Source: Deltaproteobacteria bacterium (GTDB lineage: Bacteria; Myxococcota_A; UBA796; GCA-2862545). Taken from it: 64,000 bases of DNA. The notes beneath the pieces are model-generated. The model searched no databases. It was given only the letters and a program-made list of their open reading frames with translations, and was not told the DNA's origin. The first letter of the stretch is position 1. Every line of letters begins with the position of its first letter. The position numbers and the translations under genes are program-made. The stretch lies in assembly GCA_006226595.1 (NCBI GenBank), contig SBGP01000088.1, forward strand, positions 1 to 64,000, in the 5' to 3' direction. This document shows positions 16,800 through 26,073 of the stretch, piece after piece.

Positions 16800-18644
16800 A
16801 TGGCCAAGAACCCCCGTCCCAAGCGTGACAACAAGCGTGCGACGCGCATCCTCATGGGCCTCACCGTCCTCGGTGTGCTCGTGTTCGCGCTGTCCGTCGG
16901 CGCGATTGCGTACATGCTCGTGCGCACCGACCGCGGCACCGTCTCCGAGGGAAGCTTCCTGCACGTCGGCCTCGCCGGCCCGCTCCTCGAGGCCCCCATG
17001 GTCGGCGGTCTGCTCCTCGATCCCGAGGACAAGCCGATTCTCGTCACCGAGTACGCCGCCGGCATCAAGGCCGCGGCCACGGACGACCGCATCACGGGTC
17101 TGTTCCTCACCCTCGACGAGCCCGGCGCGAGCATCGCCGCCTACCAGGAGATCCGCGACGCGCTCGAGGCCTTCGACGAGAGCGGCAAGCCCTGCGTGGC
17201 CTACGCCGAGGGGCTGTCCATGGGCAGCTACTACCTCGCCTCCGCTTGCGACAAGGTGCTCCTCGCCCCCTCCGGCGCGATGATGGTCAGCGGCATGAGC
17301 ATGTCGACGACCTACTACAAGGGCACCCTCGACATGCTCGACGCCGAGGCCGAGTTCGTGCACGTCGGCGACTTCAAGAGCGCCGTCGAGCCGTTCATGC
17401 GCACCGAGCCCTCCGAGCCCGCCGCCGAGGCCATGGAGTACCTGCTCAGCGGCATCTTCGACCGCCTGGTGGCCGACATCGCCGAGGGTCGCGGCCTCTC
17501 CGCCGAGGCCGTCCGCGACGCGATCGACCACCCGAGCCTGACCCCCAGGGGCGCGCAGTCCCGCGGTCTCATCGATGGCACCGCGTTCCCCGACGCCATC
17601 CTCGCGACCCTCGAGAAGGCCGGCGACGACGGCTGGGTCGAGGGGCTCGCCGAGGCCAGCTTCTCGGGTGACATGGCGGAGCTCCAGGACGACAAGCTCA
17701 CGCCGGTGAAGGAGTACCTCAAGGGCTGGCGCGCCGATCAGGCGAGTGCGGACAAGAAGGTGCTCGTGGTCCACGCGGCCGGTCAGATCGTCTCCGGTGA
17801 CGGGGGCGGTGGCCTGTTCGGCGACAGCGGTATGCTCGCCGACCGTCCGTTCCGCCAGTGGATGCGCGAGGCCCGCGACCGCGACGACGTCGCTGCAGTC
17901 GTGCTCCGCATCGACAGCCCCGGCGGCAGCGGGCTCGCCTCCGACATGATGTGGCGCGAGATCGAGCTCACCAAGCAGGTCGGCAAGCCGATCGTCGTGT
18001 CCCAGGCCGGGCTCGCCGCGTCGGGTGGCTACTACATCACGGCTCCCGCCGACTACGTGTTTGCCCAGCCTTCGACGATCACCGGCTCCATTGGCGTGCT
18101 CGGCGGAAAGGTGAACCTCTCGGGAACCTACGAGAAGGTCGGCATCACCGAGCACACCTACCAGCGCGGCGACAACGCCACGATGTTCTCGGGCACGTCC
18201 TCGTTCGGTGAGGAGGGTCGCGAGATCTTCCAGGAGTACCTGAGCGAGTTCTACGACGTGTTCGTCAACAAGTGCGCCGAGGGCCGCGGCATGACCTACG
18301 ACGAGGTTCACGCGGTGGCCCAGGGTCGGGTGTGGACCGGCGAGCAGGCGGTCGAGCGTGGCCTGGTCGACGAGATCGGCGGGCTCGACGACGCGGTGGC
18401 CAAGGCGGCCGAGCTCGCGAAGATCGACGACTACGGCATCGATCGCCTGCCGCGGCAGAAGGACTTCATGGAGGTCCTGCTCGAGGACCTGGCCAAGGCC
18501 GAGATCGAGCAGCCGACCGTGAAGGTCGACTTCGGGCTGCTGCCCGAGCAGGAGCAGGCCGTGAAGGAGCTCATGCTGCTCGAGCAGATCCTCGCCGATG
18601 GGGGCGTCGCGGCCTGGCTGCCGAGCGCGCCCCGCATCGAGTAG
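16800..18644 (+). CDS. sppA: Signal peptide peptidase SppA (67K type)
   Basis: A 614-residue tandem-domain membrane serine peptidase that cleaves leftover signal peptides. One transmembrane helix (about residues 18-41) anchors it. The catalytic dyad is Lys193 (VGDFKSAVEPF, N-terminal half) and Ser408 (LAASGGYY, C-terminal half), the two-domain arrangement of E. coli SppA. Further signatures are LRIDSPGG and STITGSIGVLGG. The start ATG at 16800 is preceded by GGAG. Its stop is 3 bases from the stop of the convergent lipoprotein gene. Confidence 0.96.
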   Translation: MAKNPRPKRDNKRATRILMGLTVLGVLVFALSVGAIAYMLVRTDRGTVSEGSFLHVGLAGPLLEAPMVGGLLLDPEDKPILVTEYAAGIKAAATDDRITGLFLTLDEPGASIAAYQEIRDALEAFDESGKPCVAYAEGLSMGSYYLASACDKVLLAPSGAMMVSGMSMSTTYYKGTLDMLDAEAEFVHVGDFKSAVEPFMRTEPSEPAAEAMEYLLSGIFDRLVADIAEGRGLSAEAVRDAIDHPSLTPRGAQSRGLIDGTAFPDAILATLEKAGDDGWVEGLAEASFSGDMAELQDDKLTPVKEYLKGWRADQASADKKVLVVHAAGQIVSGDGGGGLFGDSGMLADRPFRQWMREARDRDDVAAVVLRIDSPGGSGLASDMMWREIELTKQVGKPIVVSQAGLAASGGYYITAPADYVFAQPSTITGSIGVLGGKVNLSGTYEKVGITEHTYQRGDNATMFSGTSSFGEEGREIFQEYLSEFYDVFVNKCAEGRGMTYDEVHAVAQGRVWTGEQAVERGLVDEIGGLDDAVAKAAELAKIDDYGIDRLPRQKDFMEVLLEDLAKAEIEQPTVKVDFGLLPEQEQAVKELMLLEQILADGGVAAWLPSAPRIE

Positions 18645-21623: not shown

Positions 21624-22883
21624 CTAGCGGTTGGCGAAGGCCGCCGAGACCACCGTCTTGTCGTTGCCGCCCATGTTGATGGTCATGCCGACCTCGGGCT
21701 GCGTGGGCATCTGGTAGTCGCCGCACTGGCCCTTCATCTGGCGGTAGATCTCGAGGACCTGCTTCACGCCCGTCGCACCGACCGGGTGGCCGAAGCCGAC
21801 CAGACCGCCACCGGTGTTCACCGGGAGCTTGCCGTCGATGGCAGTGGTGCCGTCGAGCACGAGCTCCACGGCCTTGCCCTTGTCGGCCCAGCCGGCGGCC
21901 TCGTACATCAGCAGCTCGGTGATGGTGAAGCAGTCGTGGACCTCGGCGACGCCGATGTCGGCGGGGGAGAGGCCCGCGTTCGCGTAGACCTGGGCCACCG
22001 CGTGCTGGGTCGCGTCCATGACGAGCGGGTCGCCGTCCTCGTAGAGGTTGCCGGTGGAGTGCGCGATAGCCAGCAGCTCGATGGCGTCGGACTCGCTCTT
22101 GCCGAGCTTCTTCAGGCCCTCTTCGCTGACGAGGATCATCGCCGCGCCGCCGTCGGAGACCTGGCTACAGTCGCTGACCTTGAGCCAGGGGTTGAGGTCC
22201 TCGTTCGCGAGGAAGGCCGGGTTCTTGTCGGAGGCGTGCGCGGCGCGCTCGAGCTCCATCTTCACGGCCTGCATGTGCGCGAGCGGGTTCTTGTTGGCGT
22301 TGTTGTAGGCCTTGACGCTCACGTGGGCGAGCTCTTCCTCGGTGAGGCCGTGGGCCTGGCGGTACGCCTTGGCACGGGCGGCGAACATCGCGGGGAAGGT
22401 GAACTCGTCGATGGAGCGCTGACGCGCGTAGTGCGAGGCGCGGGCGAGGTAGTCGGCGCCGGTACGGGCGGAGGCGGTGGTCTGCACCTCGGCACCCGCG
22501 GCGAGGACGATGTCGTGGCCCGCGCGGATGGCGTCGACGGCGGAGGCAAAGGCCAGGCCGCCGGAGGCACACGCGCCTTCGACGCGCATCACGGGCTTGT
22601 AGAGCAGGTCGGGGTGGGCGCCGACGAGGGCGGCACCGAGGTGGCCCTGGTTGCTGAACAGCTCACCGACGAAGTTGCCGATCCACGCCTTCTCGATGGC
22701 GGCGGCCGGGGTGCCGGTCGCGTCGAGCGCGCCACGGACGGCGGCGGTGATGGTCTCTTCGAGCGTGGGGTTCTCACGCTTGCCGAAGTCGGGGTGACGC
22801 TTCCAGATGAAGTCGGGGTGGTTCTTGCCGATGAACGGCGTGATGTGGCCACCGAGAACGAAGATGCGACGGTTCAGAGCCAT
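21624..22883 (-). CDS. Thiolase family protein (acetyl-CoA acetyltransferase-like)
   Basis: A 419-residue thiolase. The nucleophile Cys is in RVEGACASGGLAF, the catalytic His in VGFGHPVGATG, and EVHDCFTITELL matches the SCP-x/acetyl-CoA acetyltransferase subgroup, with the second cysteine-type loop near NMGGNDKT at the end. It likely joins or cleaves acyl-CoA units in beta-oxidation or a related path. ATG 22883 has GGAG 8 bases upstream. No beta-oxidation partner is adjacent, so its pathway is not fixed. Confidence 0.87.
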   Translation of the reverse strand: MALNRRIFVLGGHITPFIGKNHPDFIWKRHPDFGKRENPTLEETITAAVRGALDATGTPAAAIEKAWIGNFVGELFSNQGHLGAALVGAHPDLLYKPVMRVEGACASGGLAFASAVDAIRAGHDIVLAAGAEVQTTASARTGADYLARASHYARQRSIDEFTFPAMFAARAKAYRQAHGLTEEELAHVSVKAYNNANKNPLAHMQAVKMELERAAHASDKNPAFLANEDLNPWLKVSDCSQVSDGGAAMILVSEEGLKKLGKSESDAIELLAIAHSTGNLYEDGDPLVMDATQHAVAQVYANAGLSPADIGVAEVHDCFTITELLMYEAAGWADKGKAVELVLDGTTAIDGKLPVNTGGGLVGFGHPVGATGVKQVLEIYRQMKGQCGDYQMPTQPEVGMTINMGGNDKTVVSAAFANR

Positions 22884-23094
22884 TGAGAAAACTCCGTGAG
22901 CGCAGATGCGCAGGGGAAAAGGCCATTGGCTTAACCACCACAGCGCCACAGTCCACCGTTTCCGGGCGACCTTCGGGGGACCACGGCGAGCGCGGCCGCG
23001 GATGCGCGAGACATGCGGGCGCGCGACCGTCGCGGTCAGGCCGTCGTTGTGTACGAGCTCGTGCGCGAACCGGGCTCACGGCCGGGCGGAAGAC

Positions 23095-24195
23095 TCAGCG
23101 CTTCGGTCCGTCACACGCGAGCTCTGGGCCCTTGCTCTTGCAGTCGTAGCGACCCTCGGCGGTGACCACGACCCAGCCGGCCATCGGCACGCCGTCGACC
23201 ACCGCATCGAGCTTGCACGCACCGGCCTGGAAGCGCCGGGCGTAGCACGAGGGCTCGCAGGACTCGGGCTGCTGACCCTCGCAGGTGATGCGCTGGCCGG
23301 AGCCCTCGCTCCAGATGAACTTCGCGCTGCGGATCTCGCGGGCGGGTCCGCTCATCTCGGGCTTGGCCGGTCCGGTGCTCGTCGCGGTGCCGACGGCGAC
23401 CGCCGGAGCCTCCGGAGGCGTGACGCCGCGGGCGACCACCATGCCGCCGGCAAAGTCGCCGGCCGCCACGGGGATCTGCCCATGGGGCGACAGCTCGGCG
23501 ACGAGGTAGGCGATGAGCTCGGAGGCGGTGACCATGGTGTCGCGGTTGGTGTCGGCCTGACCGCCCATGGCCTGCGCGAACACCTTGCCGAACGCGCCGT
23601 CCTTGCCCGGCGTGCGCGACTGGGTGGCGCTCACGACCATGGTGTTGCGCGACAGCTTCGGCCACTCGCCGGCGGCGGGACCGTAGAAGGTGAATCCTTC
23701 CATCGCCTGGGCGTGGATGGCGTCCGTGACGACGAGGGTGGTGCCCGCGGTGGTGCTCGACTTGAGCTCCCGCGCGAAGGATGCCAGCTCCAGACCGTCC
23801 TCCTGGCCGTTGGCCAGCGTCGAGTCGTGAGCGAAGAAGGTCGGCAGGCCGAGGTCGGCGCCGATGCCGTGACCCGCGAAGTACAGGACGAACACGTCCT
23901 GAGGGCCGAGCAGGGGACCCGCCTGGTCACGAAGGGCCGCGAGGATGCCGTCCTTGGTGGCTTCGCCGTCGCCGAGGAGGAACACGTGCGTGAAGTCCGC
24001 GTCCTTGCGCAGCGACTCCGCGACCTGGGCCGCGTCCGAGCGTGCGTAGTCGAGCTCGACCTCGTCGGGGAGGTTCGCGTAGCTCGAGATGCCGACCACG
24101 AGCGCCACGTAGTTGCCGGTGGGCGCGACCACGCGTTCCTGCGCGCCGGCCGTGGTGGCCAGCCCGAGTAGTGCAGCGGTGGCGAGCGCTCTCAT
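23095..24195 (-). CDS. Exported caspase-fold protein lacking the catalytic Cys
   Basis: A 366-residue protein with an N-terminal signal (MRALATAALLGLATTAGA) and a caspase/metacaspase (peptidase C14) domain. VALVVGISSYAN begins the domain, and the catalytic-type His is His109 in YFAGHG. At the place where C14 enzymes have DACH, this protein has DAIH: Asp158, Ala159, Ile160, His161. The Cys is therefore replaced by Ile and the domain is probably not a protease. The C-terminal region (about 255-366) has six Cys, suggesting disulfides outside the cytoplasm. It is divergent from a subtilase gene. GGAGGAAGG precedes the ATG. Confidence 0.82.
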   Translation of the reverse strand: MRALATAALLGLATTAGAQERVVAPTGNYVALVVGISSYANLPDEVELDYARSDAAQVAESLRKDADFTHVFLLGDGEATKDGILAALRDQAGPLLGPQDVFVLYFAGHGIGADLGLPTFFAHDSTLANGQEDGLELASFARELKSSTTAGTTLVVTDAIHAQAMEGFTFYGPAAGEWPKLSRNTMVVSATQSRTPGKDGAFGKVFAQAMGGQADTNRDTMVTASELIAYLVAELSPHGQIPVAAGDFAGGMVVARGVTPPEAPAVAVGTATSTGPAKPEMSGPAREIRSAKFIWSEGSGQRITCEGQQPESCEPSCYARRFQAGACKLDAVVDGVPMAGWVVVTAEGRYDCKSKGPELACDGPKR

Positions 24196-24321: not shown

Positions 24322-26073
24322 ATGAAGCCCGCTACTCGTACCGTCGCCGTTCTCGGCCTGATCGGGGTGGCGATGTACGCGTTCCGGCCTGCGCCCGCTG
24401 TTCGCGAGCTCCCGCAGCCCGAAGCCGTCTCCGTCCCCGCGGCCCCCGGAACCCTGGTCGTCGACCTCGTGGACGGGGCTTCCGCCGCGGATCGCGACGG
24501 GGTGGCGGCGCTGCTCGGGGCCGAGCTCGACTGGGTGCACCCGCTCGCCGCCGACGAGGCGCTGGCGGTCGGGGATGTGGCCGATCTCGCCGCGGCCATC
24601 GCGATGCTCGACGGCAACCCGCTGGTCGAGGTCGCGGAGCCGGTGATGGAGATGACGCTCCCGCCGCAGCCCTCCGTCGACGAGGCCCTCGATCTCGCGC
24701 CGATGGCGGGCTTCCCGAACGACCCGCTGTACGCCAAGCAGTGGCACCTCGACGCGATGGGCGCGCCCGAAGGCTGGGCCAGGACGCCGCGTGGTCGCGG
24801 GGTGATCGTCGCCGTCGTCGACACAGGCGTGAAGGTGGTCGAGGACCTCGAAGGCACCAAGGTGCTCGAGGGCAAGAGCTTCGTGCTCGGCGAGTCGTCG
24901 CCGGTCGACGGAAACGGTCACGGCACCCACGTTGCCGGCACCATCGCCCAGACCACGAACAACGGGGTCGGCGCCGCCGGCGTGGCTCCCGAGGCCACGA
25001 TCCTGCCCGTGAAGGTGCTGTCGCGCTTCGGCAGCGGCATGAGCCCGTGGATTGCCGCGGGCATCGACTACGCCGTGGACGAAGGCGCGGACGTGATCAA
25101 CCTGTCGCTTGGCGGGTCCTACAGTCGCGTCATCCACACCGCGATCCAGAAGGCGCGCGCCAAGGGCGTCGTCGTCGTGGCCGCCGCGGGCAACACAGGT
25201 CGCCGCGGAGTGTCCTACCCGGGTGCGCTCGAGGAGAGCATCGGCGTCGGCGCCACGGGCCCGGGCGGCGCTATCGCGCCGTACAGCTCCTACGGCAAGG
25301 GCGTCGACATCTCGGCCCCGGGCGGCGACAAGCGCAAGCCGGGCGGCGGGGTGTGGCAGGACACGATCGACGGCACGGGTCACGCCTACAAGGAGTTCCA
25401 GGGCACCTCCATGGCCACGCCGCACGTAGCGGGCGCAGCGGCGGTGCTGCTGTCCACCGGTTCGTGCGACGCGGACTGCGTCGAGCGCACGCTACTCGAC
25501 ACGGCCCGCGGGCAGGGGTGGGACGAGAAGTTCGGCCACGGCCAGCTCGATCTCGGGGCGGCGCTGTCGCAGACCACCGACCGTCGAGGGGGTCTCGGCT
25601 TCCTCATCGGTGGGCTGATGGCGCTGCTCATCGGCAACCTGGCGCGCTCGTCGGCGGGCTTCACGCGCACCGCGGGAGCGGTCGGTGCTGTCGCCGCCGG
25701 TGGCTTGTTCTTCCTTCCGCGGATCGGTCTGTTCGGGCTGCTCGGCGAGCTGCTCTCCCAGCCCTTCCTCGCGTGGCCCAACGTGCTGCTCGGCCCGGGA
25801 TGGGCGAGCTTCCCGCTGTGGCTGTCGGCGGCGCTGCCCGCAGCGGTCGCGTTCGTGCTCGGCGCCAGCCGCGCCGGGCGACCCGTCGCCCTCGGCTTCT
25901 GTGCCGGTGTGGGCGCGCACCTGCTCCACGCCGCGGCCACCGGCGCCCTGTCGCCGTCGTGGATGCCCGGCTTCATGCAGGGACCGTGGCTCGCCATCCA
26001 CGGCGCGATCTGCCTGGGCCTCGCCATGGCGCTCGCCGGCGCCGAGAAGCTCGACCACAAGGAGCGTCGATGA
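24322..26073 (+). CDS. Subtilisin-family (S8) peptidase with C-terminal membrane domain
   Basis: A 583-residue serine peptidase. Residues 1-20 are a signal or anchor helix, about 45-110 look like a prodomain, and the catalytic domain follows with Asp167 (AVVDTG), His200 (NGHGTHVAGT), Asn291 (AAGNTG) and Ser363 (GTSMATPHVAG); the triad is complete. After about residue 425 there are four or five hydrophobic helices, which is unusual for a secreted subtilase and would hold the enzyme in the membrane. It is divergent from the cysteine-less caspase-fold protein and its stop overlaps the next small gene (ATGA). Confidence 0.93.
   Translation: MKPATRTVAVLGLIGVAMYAFRPAPAVRELPQPEAVSVPAAPGTLVVDLVDGASAADRDGVAALLGAELDWVHPLAADEALAVGDVADLAAAIAMLDGNPLVEVAEPVMEMTLPPQPSVDEALDLAPMAGFPNDPLYAKQWHLDAMGAPEGWARTPRGRGVIVAVVDTGVKVVEDLEGTKVLEGKSFVLGESSPVDGNGHGTHVAGTIAQTTNNGVGAAGVAPEATILPVKVLSRFGSGMSPWIAAGIDYAVDEGADVINLSLGGSYSRVIHTAIQKARAKGVVVVAAAGNTGRRGVSYPGALEESIGVGATGPGGAIAPYSSYGKGVDISAPGGDKRKPGGGVWQDTIDGTGHAYKEFQGTSMATPHVAGAAAVLLSTGSCDADCVERTLLDTARGQGWDEKFGHGQLDLGAALSQTTDRRGGLGFLIGGLMALLIGNLARSSAGFTRTAGAVGAVAAGGLFFLPRIGLFGLLGELLSQPFLAWPNVLLGPGWASFPLWLSAALPAAVAFVLGASRAGRPVALGFCAGVGAHLLHAAATGALSPSWMPGFMQGPWLAIHGAICLGLAMALAGAEKLDHKERR

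Follow-up and report, generated by a model that had tools for sequence, protein, structure and literature searches.

The window, a 64,000-nucleotide stretch of contig SBGP01000088.1 from a deltaproteobacterial assembly (GCA_006226595.1), carries on its minus strand an open reading frame that starts with an ATG at position 24195 and ends at 23095. It lies between a thiolase gene and a subtilase gene, the latter divergently transcribed and 126 bp away. The features on which this study draws are listed here.

21624..22949, minus strand: thiolase gene, a neighbour
23095..24195, minus strand: coding sequence of a predicted exported pseudo-orthocaspase of 366 residues, from the reading frame, orthologues and dN/dS
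24139..24195, minus strand: probable signal peptide, residues 1-19, read by eye; orthologues have similar N-terminal extensions
23431..24108, minus strand: domain of caspase fold (Peptidase_C14, p20-like), spanning roughly residues 30-255, from Pfam, profile and structure comparisons
23869..23871, minus strand: His109, the catalytic His position
23716..23718, minus strand: Ile160 (codon ATC), the catalytic Cys position
23659..23682, minus strand: family-specific GP-x4-WP motif, residues 172-179, directly after the dead Cys position
23518..23553, minus strand: EF-hand-type loop, residues 215-226
23098..23334, minus strand: C-terminal domain with six Cys, spanning roughly residues 288-366; its homologue stands at the C-terminus of transmembrane Ser/Thr kinases
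24322..26073, plus strand: subtilase (Peptidase_S8) with a hydrophobic C-terminal part; divergent neighbour, the link partly conserved

The initial annotation had read the 366-residue protein as an exported pseudo-caspase with a Cys-rich tail, in which His109 is kept and the catalytic Cys is replaced by Ile. Its main elements hold up. Peptidase_C14 (PF00656) was the sole match in a Pfam scan of the window protein (P0001), covering residues 30-173 (E 1.7e-8, 34.8 bits, cut-off 21.4) and leaving it without a protein kinase domain; the same model matches 13/13 A1 members. Against the model for EACC1-associated caspases (NF047832) the window protein scores 35.4 bits, below the curated cut-off of 140. 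His109 falls within YFAGHG and Ile160 within TDAIH. By eye, the N-terminus is hydrophobic and ends in A-G-A before a Q, as expected of a probable signal peptide, and all six Cys residues of the protein (305, 313, 317, 327, 352 and 361) are in its last 62 residues.

The catalytic positions across the family

A search at family rank covered 21 genomes and recovered one full-length orthologue in each of 13, and in these closest relatives the Cys position holds Ile in 10, Val in three and Cys in none. The orthologue profile, applied at order rank, gave matches at E 1e-15 in 41 of the 63 genomes there; one of these (G023) contributes only a tail fragment at a contig edge (L073), and the counts given below therefore refer to 42 domain-bearing members from 40 of the 63 genomes. 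At the Cys position these 42 proteins have 24 Ala, 10 Ile, 4 Val, 4 Ser and no Cys, and at the His109 position 35 His, 4 Gln, 2 Arg and 1 Glu. All 25 related C14 domains retain the Cys.

The assignment of Ile160 to the catalytic Cys position follows from profile alignments that pair TDAIH with the MDACY of Cys-bearing relatives and with the D-S-C-H of GSU0716 from Geobacter sulfurreducens (PDB 3bij), the nearest solved sequence relative (E 0.0028 and 3.2e-5 in two profile searches). In the former alignment (hhalign, the family against 22 Cys-bearing relatives, E 4.3e-42) the region after p20 also aligns with the His-Cys proteins; in the latter, 'ivtDaihrn' stands opposite the 3bij residues in a segment that itself scores poorly, and the pseudo-caspase lacks the Cys found there in 3bij. 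A replacement Cys nucleophile was considered and rejected for the window protein, which has no Cys anywhere in its C14 domain. Elsewhere in the family, one member (L067) has a Cys two residues downstream and a few carry one in the segment that precedes the site, while the four Ser members could keep a nucleophile. Judged from sequence, Cys-based catalysis has almost certainly been lost. The position is encoded by TCN, GCN, GTN and ATY codons, and the substitution path may have run from Cys through Ser and Ala to Val or Ile.

Distribution, history and selection

No family member was found outside the order, either in a class search (71 genomes) or in a phylum search (377 genomes drawn evenly), and a score gap separates the last member (E 8.1e-74) from the next match (4.5e-37); the nearest outsiders that were fetched all retain His and Cys. 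In a viral collection the search pattern matched 44 stretches, none of which encodes a relative, and a collection of genome contigs returned a single relative (L031), the same place as the match in G014. When the 42 members and 25 Cys-bearing C14 domains were placed in one tree, with the dyad columns left out, a single branch (support 97/79, below the program's starred level) set the family apart from the others. On this tree one change is needed at the Cys position and at least four later ones at the His position, by which reckoning Cys is a single loss in the family ancestor and His109 was lost at least four times later. Two genomes stand apart in copy number: G025 has tandem pseudo-caspase genes (L065:5687-8205) and a third copy elsewhere (L068), and G007, from the window's own family, has 25 C14 matches, far above its relatives, and no member of the pseudo-caspase family.

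The missing Cys, taken alone, could suggest a sequence error or a decaying pseudogene. This explanation, to which we attach a negligible probability, is refuted by the absence of Cys from all 42 members, by full-length open frames and by dN/dS values far below 1; the substitution is thus neither an error nor unique to the window. Counting gave dN/dS of 0.06-0.17 in nine pairs, which indicates that the gene is maintained and not decaying; the window and L031 give 0.14 at a dS of about 1, near saturation. We read the gene as intact, vertically inherited and long retained under purifying selection.

The former active site and the EF-hand-type loop

Seven residues (G112, D114, D158, G172, W178, D215 and E226) are invariant in 42/42 members, and P118 (41/42) and H161 (39/42, with Phe, Arg or Asp in the other three) are nearly so. 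D158 is the Asp two before the Cys position. D114, P118, H161 and the GPxxxxWP motif flank the former site in sequence and are not features of the 25 Cys-bearing relatives, among which the motif occurs in 0/25 and a His at position +1 in 3/25. The EF-hand-type loop has its pattern in 42/42 members; since a looser pattern is also present in 18/25 of the Cys-bearing relatives, the loop is inherited. The family profile also matches solved calcium-binding EF-hand proteins (best 3aka, E 6e-4).

A site with this composition raises the prospect that the caspase fold now serves as a new type of enzyme, or as a binder of small molecules, in which a rebuilt His, Asp and Trp site replaces the Cys-His dyad. 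The invariance of D114, D158, G172 and W178 and the near-invariance of H161, D158 apart atypical of Cys-bearing relatives, would suit such a site, but three members have another residue at H161 and seven have lost H109; no His is therefore indispensable, and we regard this possibility as decidedly improbable.

Structure prediction agreed with the fold and was too weak to place Ile160, H161 or W178. The full-length model has a pLDDT of 43.8 and a trimmed model 55.1, with the loop of the 160s below 50, and at these values the geometry of D114, H161, W178 and Ile160 is not readable. Among the leading Foldseek and VIA-align matches to these weak models were metacaspases, MALT1, legumain and 3bij.

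Metacaspase-4: Z 9.0, rmsd 5.1, 149 residues aligned (best match)
MALT1: Z 8.1, rmsd 4.8, 149 residues aligned
Yca1: Z 8.1, rmsd 3.9, 123 residues aligned
Legumain: Z 8.0, rmsd 3.8, 139 residues aligned
3bij: Z 7.6, rmsd 4.3, 131 residues aligned

As far as a model of this quality goes, the comparison, with its fold matches to metacaspases and GSU0716, is in agreement with the caspase-fold result from sequence and adds nothing on the site.

A six-Cys tail shared with transmembrane kinases

Six tail Cys are present in 36/42 members and in the fragment L073; the six incomplete tails belong to three members of family f6 with two Cys, two paralogues in G025 with none, and L069, which ends at a contig end. 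Two of the three pseudo-caspases of G025 thus go without the six-Cys tail. The tail has no significant Pfam family (best Ig_2, E 0.011, in 5/32 members) and gives a weak match to a crystallin-like chain (2dad, E 0.91). Searches with a tail profile returned two sets, first 37 pseudo-caspase tails with E values of 1.7e-26 or better, then 55 weaker places whose E values run from 8e-13 to 0.007. Twelve places of the second set were fetched: 11 are the C-termini of kinase-like open reading frames, in which a hydrophobic segment and a Pro-rich linker can be recognised by eye, and one is a contig-edge fragment. Three of these kinase frames were scanned with Pfam and gave Pkinase at E 2e-35 or better, and in the same three the Cys-rich tail domain had no Pfam match.

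The two kinds of tail are homologous by hhalign (probability 99.1, E 1.4e-18). The kinases (L158-L168) thus resemble the pseudo-caspase in a C-terminal domain that lies, in their case, beyond a membrane segment; they differ from it in having four conserved tail Cys as against six, and in the kinase domain that the pseudo-caspase lacks. In such kinases the part C-terminal to the membrane segment is usually extracytoplasmic, and from this topology and the hydrophobic segment seen by eye the kinase tail is predicted to be extracytoplasmic as well. A kinase-tail profile matched 28 of 188 genomes of the phylum, all inside the order, with the pseudo-caspase tails as the next set, and in the phylum searches both tail forms were found solely in the order. 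The Cys-rich domain of the kinases looks like an undescribed, order-specific sensor domain. Kinase-type tails also occur on contigs C78, C18 and C9 of the window's own genome.

Across the 63 genomes, 31 have both the pseudo-caspase and the kinase-type tail, 10 have the one alone, 10 the other alone and 12 neither. The overlap is above expectation (p 0.026, by a statistic that ignores kinship and counts kinase-type tails of which 11 places were read as kinases), and the two may be said to co-occur loosely. A specific form of this connection is that the pseudo-caspase serves as a ligand, decoy or co-receptor in transmembrane Ser/Thr kinase signalling, the rebuilt dead domain sensing while the tail meets the kinase ectodomains or a common ligand; we hold this to be rather unlikely.

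Gene neighbourhood and possible partners

Neighbours were counted over at most about 18 kb at each locus, and some contigs are far shorter. The initial annotation had described the divergent gene as a subtilase with a membrane domain and proposed a regulatory or substrate-recognition link between its product and the pseudo-caspase. The gene product matches Peptidase_S8 (E 1.2e-54), and its C-terminal third is hydrophobic by eye. As to the link, a subtilase occurs near the pseudo-caspase in 11/42 loci. It is head-to-head in 7/13 loci of the window's family (the window, L031, L074, L076, L077, L078 and L080), separated by one gene in another locus of that family (L075), and nearby but convergent in 3/3 loci of family f2 (L062, L066 and L073). 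None was found in the 26 loci of families f3, f4 and f6, some of which are on short contigs, and the thiolase gene is the commoner neighbour, at 23/42 loci. A role for the pseudo-caspase as partner, chaperone or substrate-recognition subunit of the membrane subtilase is thus weakly supported, since the head-to-head arrangement is confined to about half of one family and a subtilase is absent nearby in three others, and we consider it very doubtful. That the pseudo-caspase has some regulatory or recognition role may still be proposed.

Other neighbours were also seen. An SppA-type signal peptide peptidase is encoded at 16800-18644 of the window (Peptidase_S49, E 8.7e-72), and genes related to it lie near the pseudo-caspase at several of the loci from the window's family. 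In family f4 the pseudo-caspase adjoins a protein of about 185 residues (F5) with one N-terminal hydrophobic segment, which often lies between the pseudo-caspase and the thiolase (L063, L090, L091, L093-L099 and L061); it has no Pfam match and does not match the window's neighbour F48.

Active caspase homologues of the same cell are a second set of candidate partners. In the manner of cFLIP, the dead domain would pair with active exported orthocaspases and tune them, and dead caspase homologues that work with active ones have precedents in TbMC4 and cFLIP-L, according to a survey (PMC6426788). Besides the pseudo-caspase, the window's genome encodes four or more C14 proteins that have both His and Cys (L001, L002, L004 and L177), two of which (L001 and L004) look exported by eye. 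Against such pairing, no C14 gene regularly adjoins the pseudo-caspase in the loci compared, and three g34 genomes (completeness 72-90%) have the pseudo-caspase but no second C14-like gene in searches with PF00656 and A3. We judge the arrangement unlikely, if still worth consideration. Within the order and phylum, active C14 proteins (L170-L177, L001, L002, L004 and L018-L030) align with the pseudo-caspase over most of the domain length and mostly share its EF-hand-type loop; unlike it, they keep His and Cys and have neither GPxxxxWP nor a Cys-rich tail. Some have extra parts that by eye are ankyrin-, PEGA- or TPR-like.

Discussion

A caspase fold (p20) is present here, and the His-Cys dyad of active orthocaspases is not (Cys in 0/42, His in 35/42). 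A pseudo-orthocaspase is defined by a p20 domain in which either or both residues of the dyad are substituted, and the protein is one. D158, a candidate for one of the acidic specificity-pocket Asp residues, is present in 42/42 members. Klemencic et al. (2019, PMC6426788) count 858 pseudo-orthocaspases among 9,994 bacterial orthocaspases. Alphaproteobacteria and Cyanobacteria account for 90%; Tyr-Ser is the commonest dyad, and His-Ala is one of the common pairs in Rhizobiales. The proteins described in that survey resemble ours in their bacterial C14/p20 domain and substituted dyad, and some also have an N-terminal export signal, as is probable here; they retain acidic pocket Asp, to which D158 may correspond. 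Ours differ in mostly combining His with Ala, Ile, Val or Ser, and in the EF-hand-type loop and kinase-type six-Cys tail. A text search of that survey (PMC6426788) for the word 'isoleucine' gave no match. Deltaproteobacteria are not among the groups given with less than 90% dyad conservation by Asplund-Samuelsson et al. (2012, PMC3501461). In Synechocystis, deleting a pseudo-orthocaspase is reported to have raised oxidative-stress tolerance (PMC7889975). A search of open-licence papers returned nothing on the present family. As far as these searches show, the pseudo-orthocaspase kind is already known, and the clade, its architecture and its proposed link to kinase ectodomains are new.

We favour, with somewhat better than even confidence, the reading that the gene encodes an intact, exported pseudo-orthocaspase with a kinase-type tail, which acts in the envelope as a non-catalytic module for calcium-dependent recognition or regulation. 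The protein is probably an exported, calcium-binding and non-proteolytic recognition module. It would not cleave by a Cys-His mechanism, and its predicted location is outside the cytoplasm, where putative disulphides may stabilise it. A ligand or partner could be bound through the face of the former active site (D114, D158, H161 and W178) and through the tail, in a calcium-dependent, non-catalytic form of recognition or regulation in the envelope, probably within the same recognition pathway as the tail-bearing kinases. The sequences themselves show the fold family, the ancestral Cys loss, the long retention, the EF-hand-type loop and the homology of the tail; the binding or regulatory mechanism, the part played by calcium and the connection to kinases are what we infer.

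On this evidence a bacterial caspase fold would have lost catalysis once and then been retained and remodelled across an order, in an extracytoplasmic setting and joined to a domain that receptor-type kinases also carry. Surveys have not settled what prokaryotic pseudo-caspases do; this family offers a concrete and testable case, and the tail-bearing kinases are a possible set of partners.
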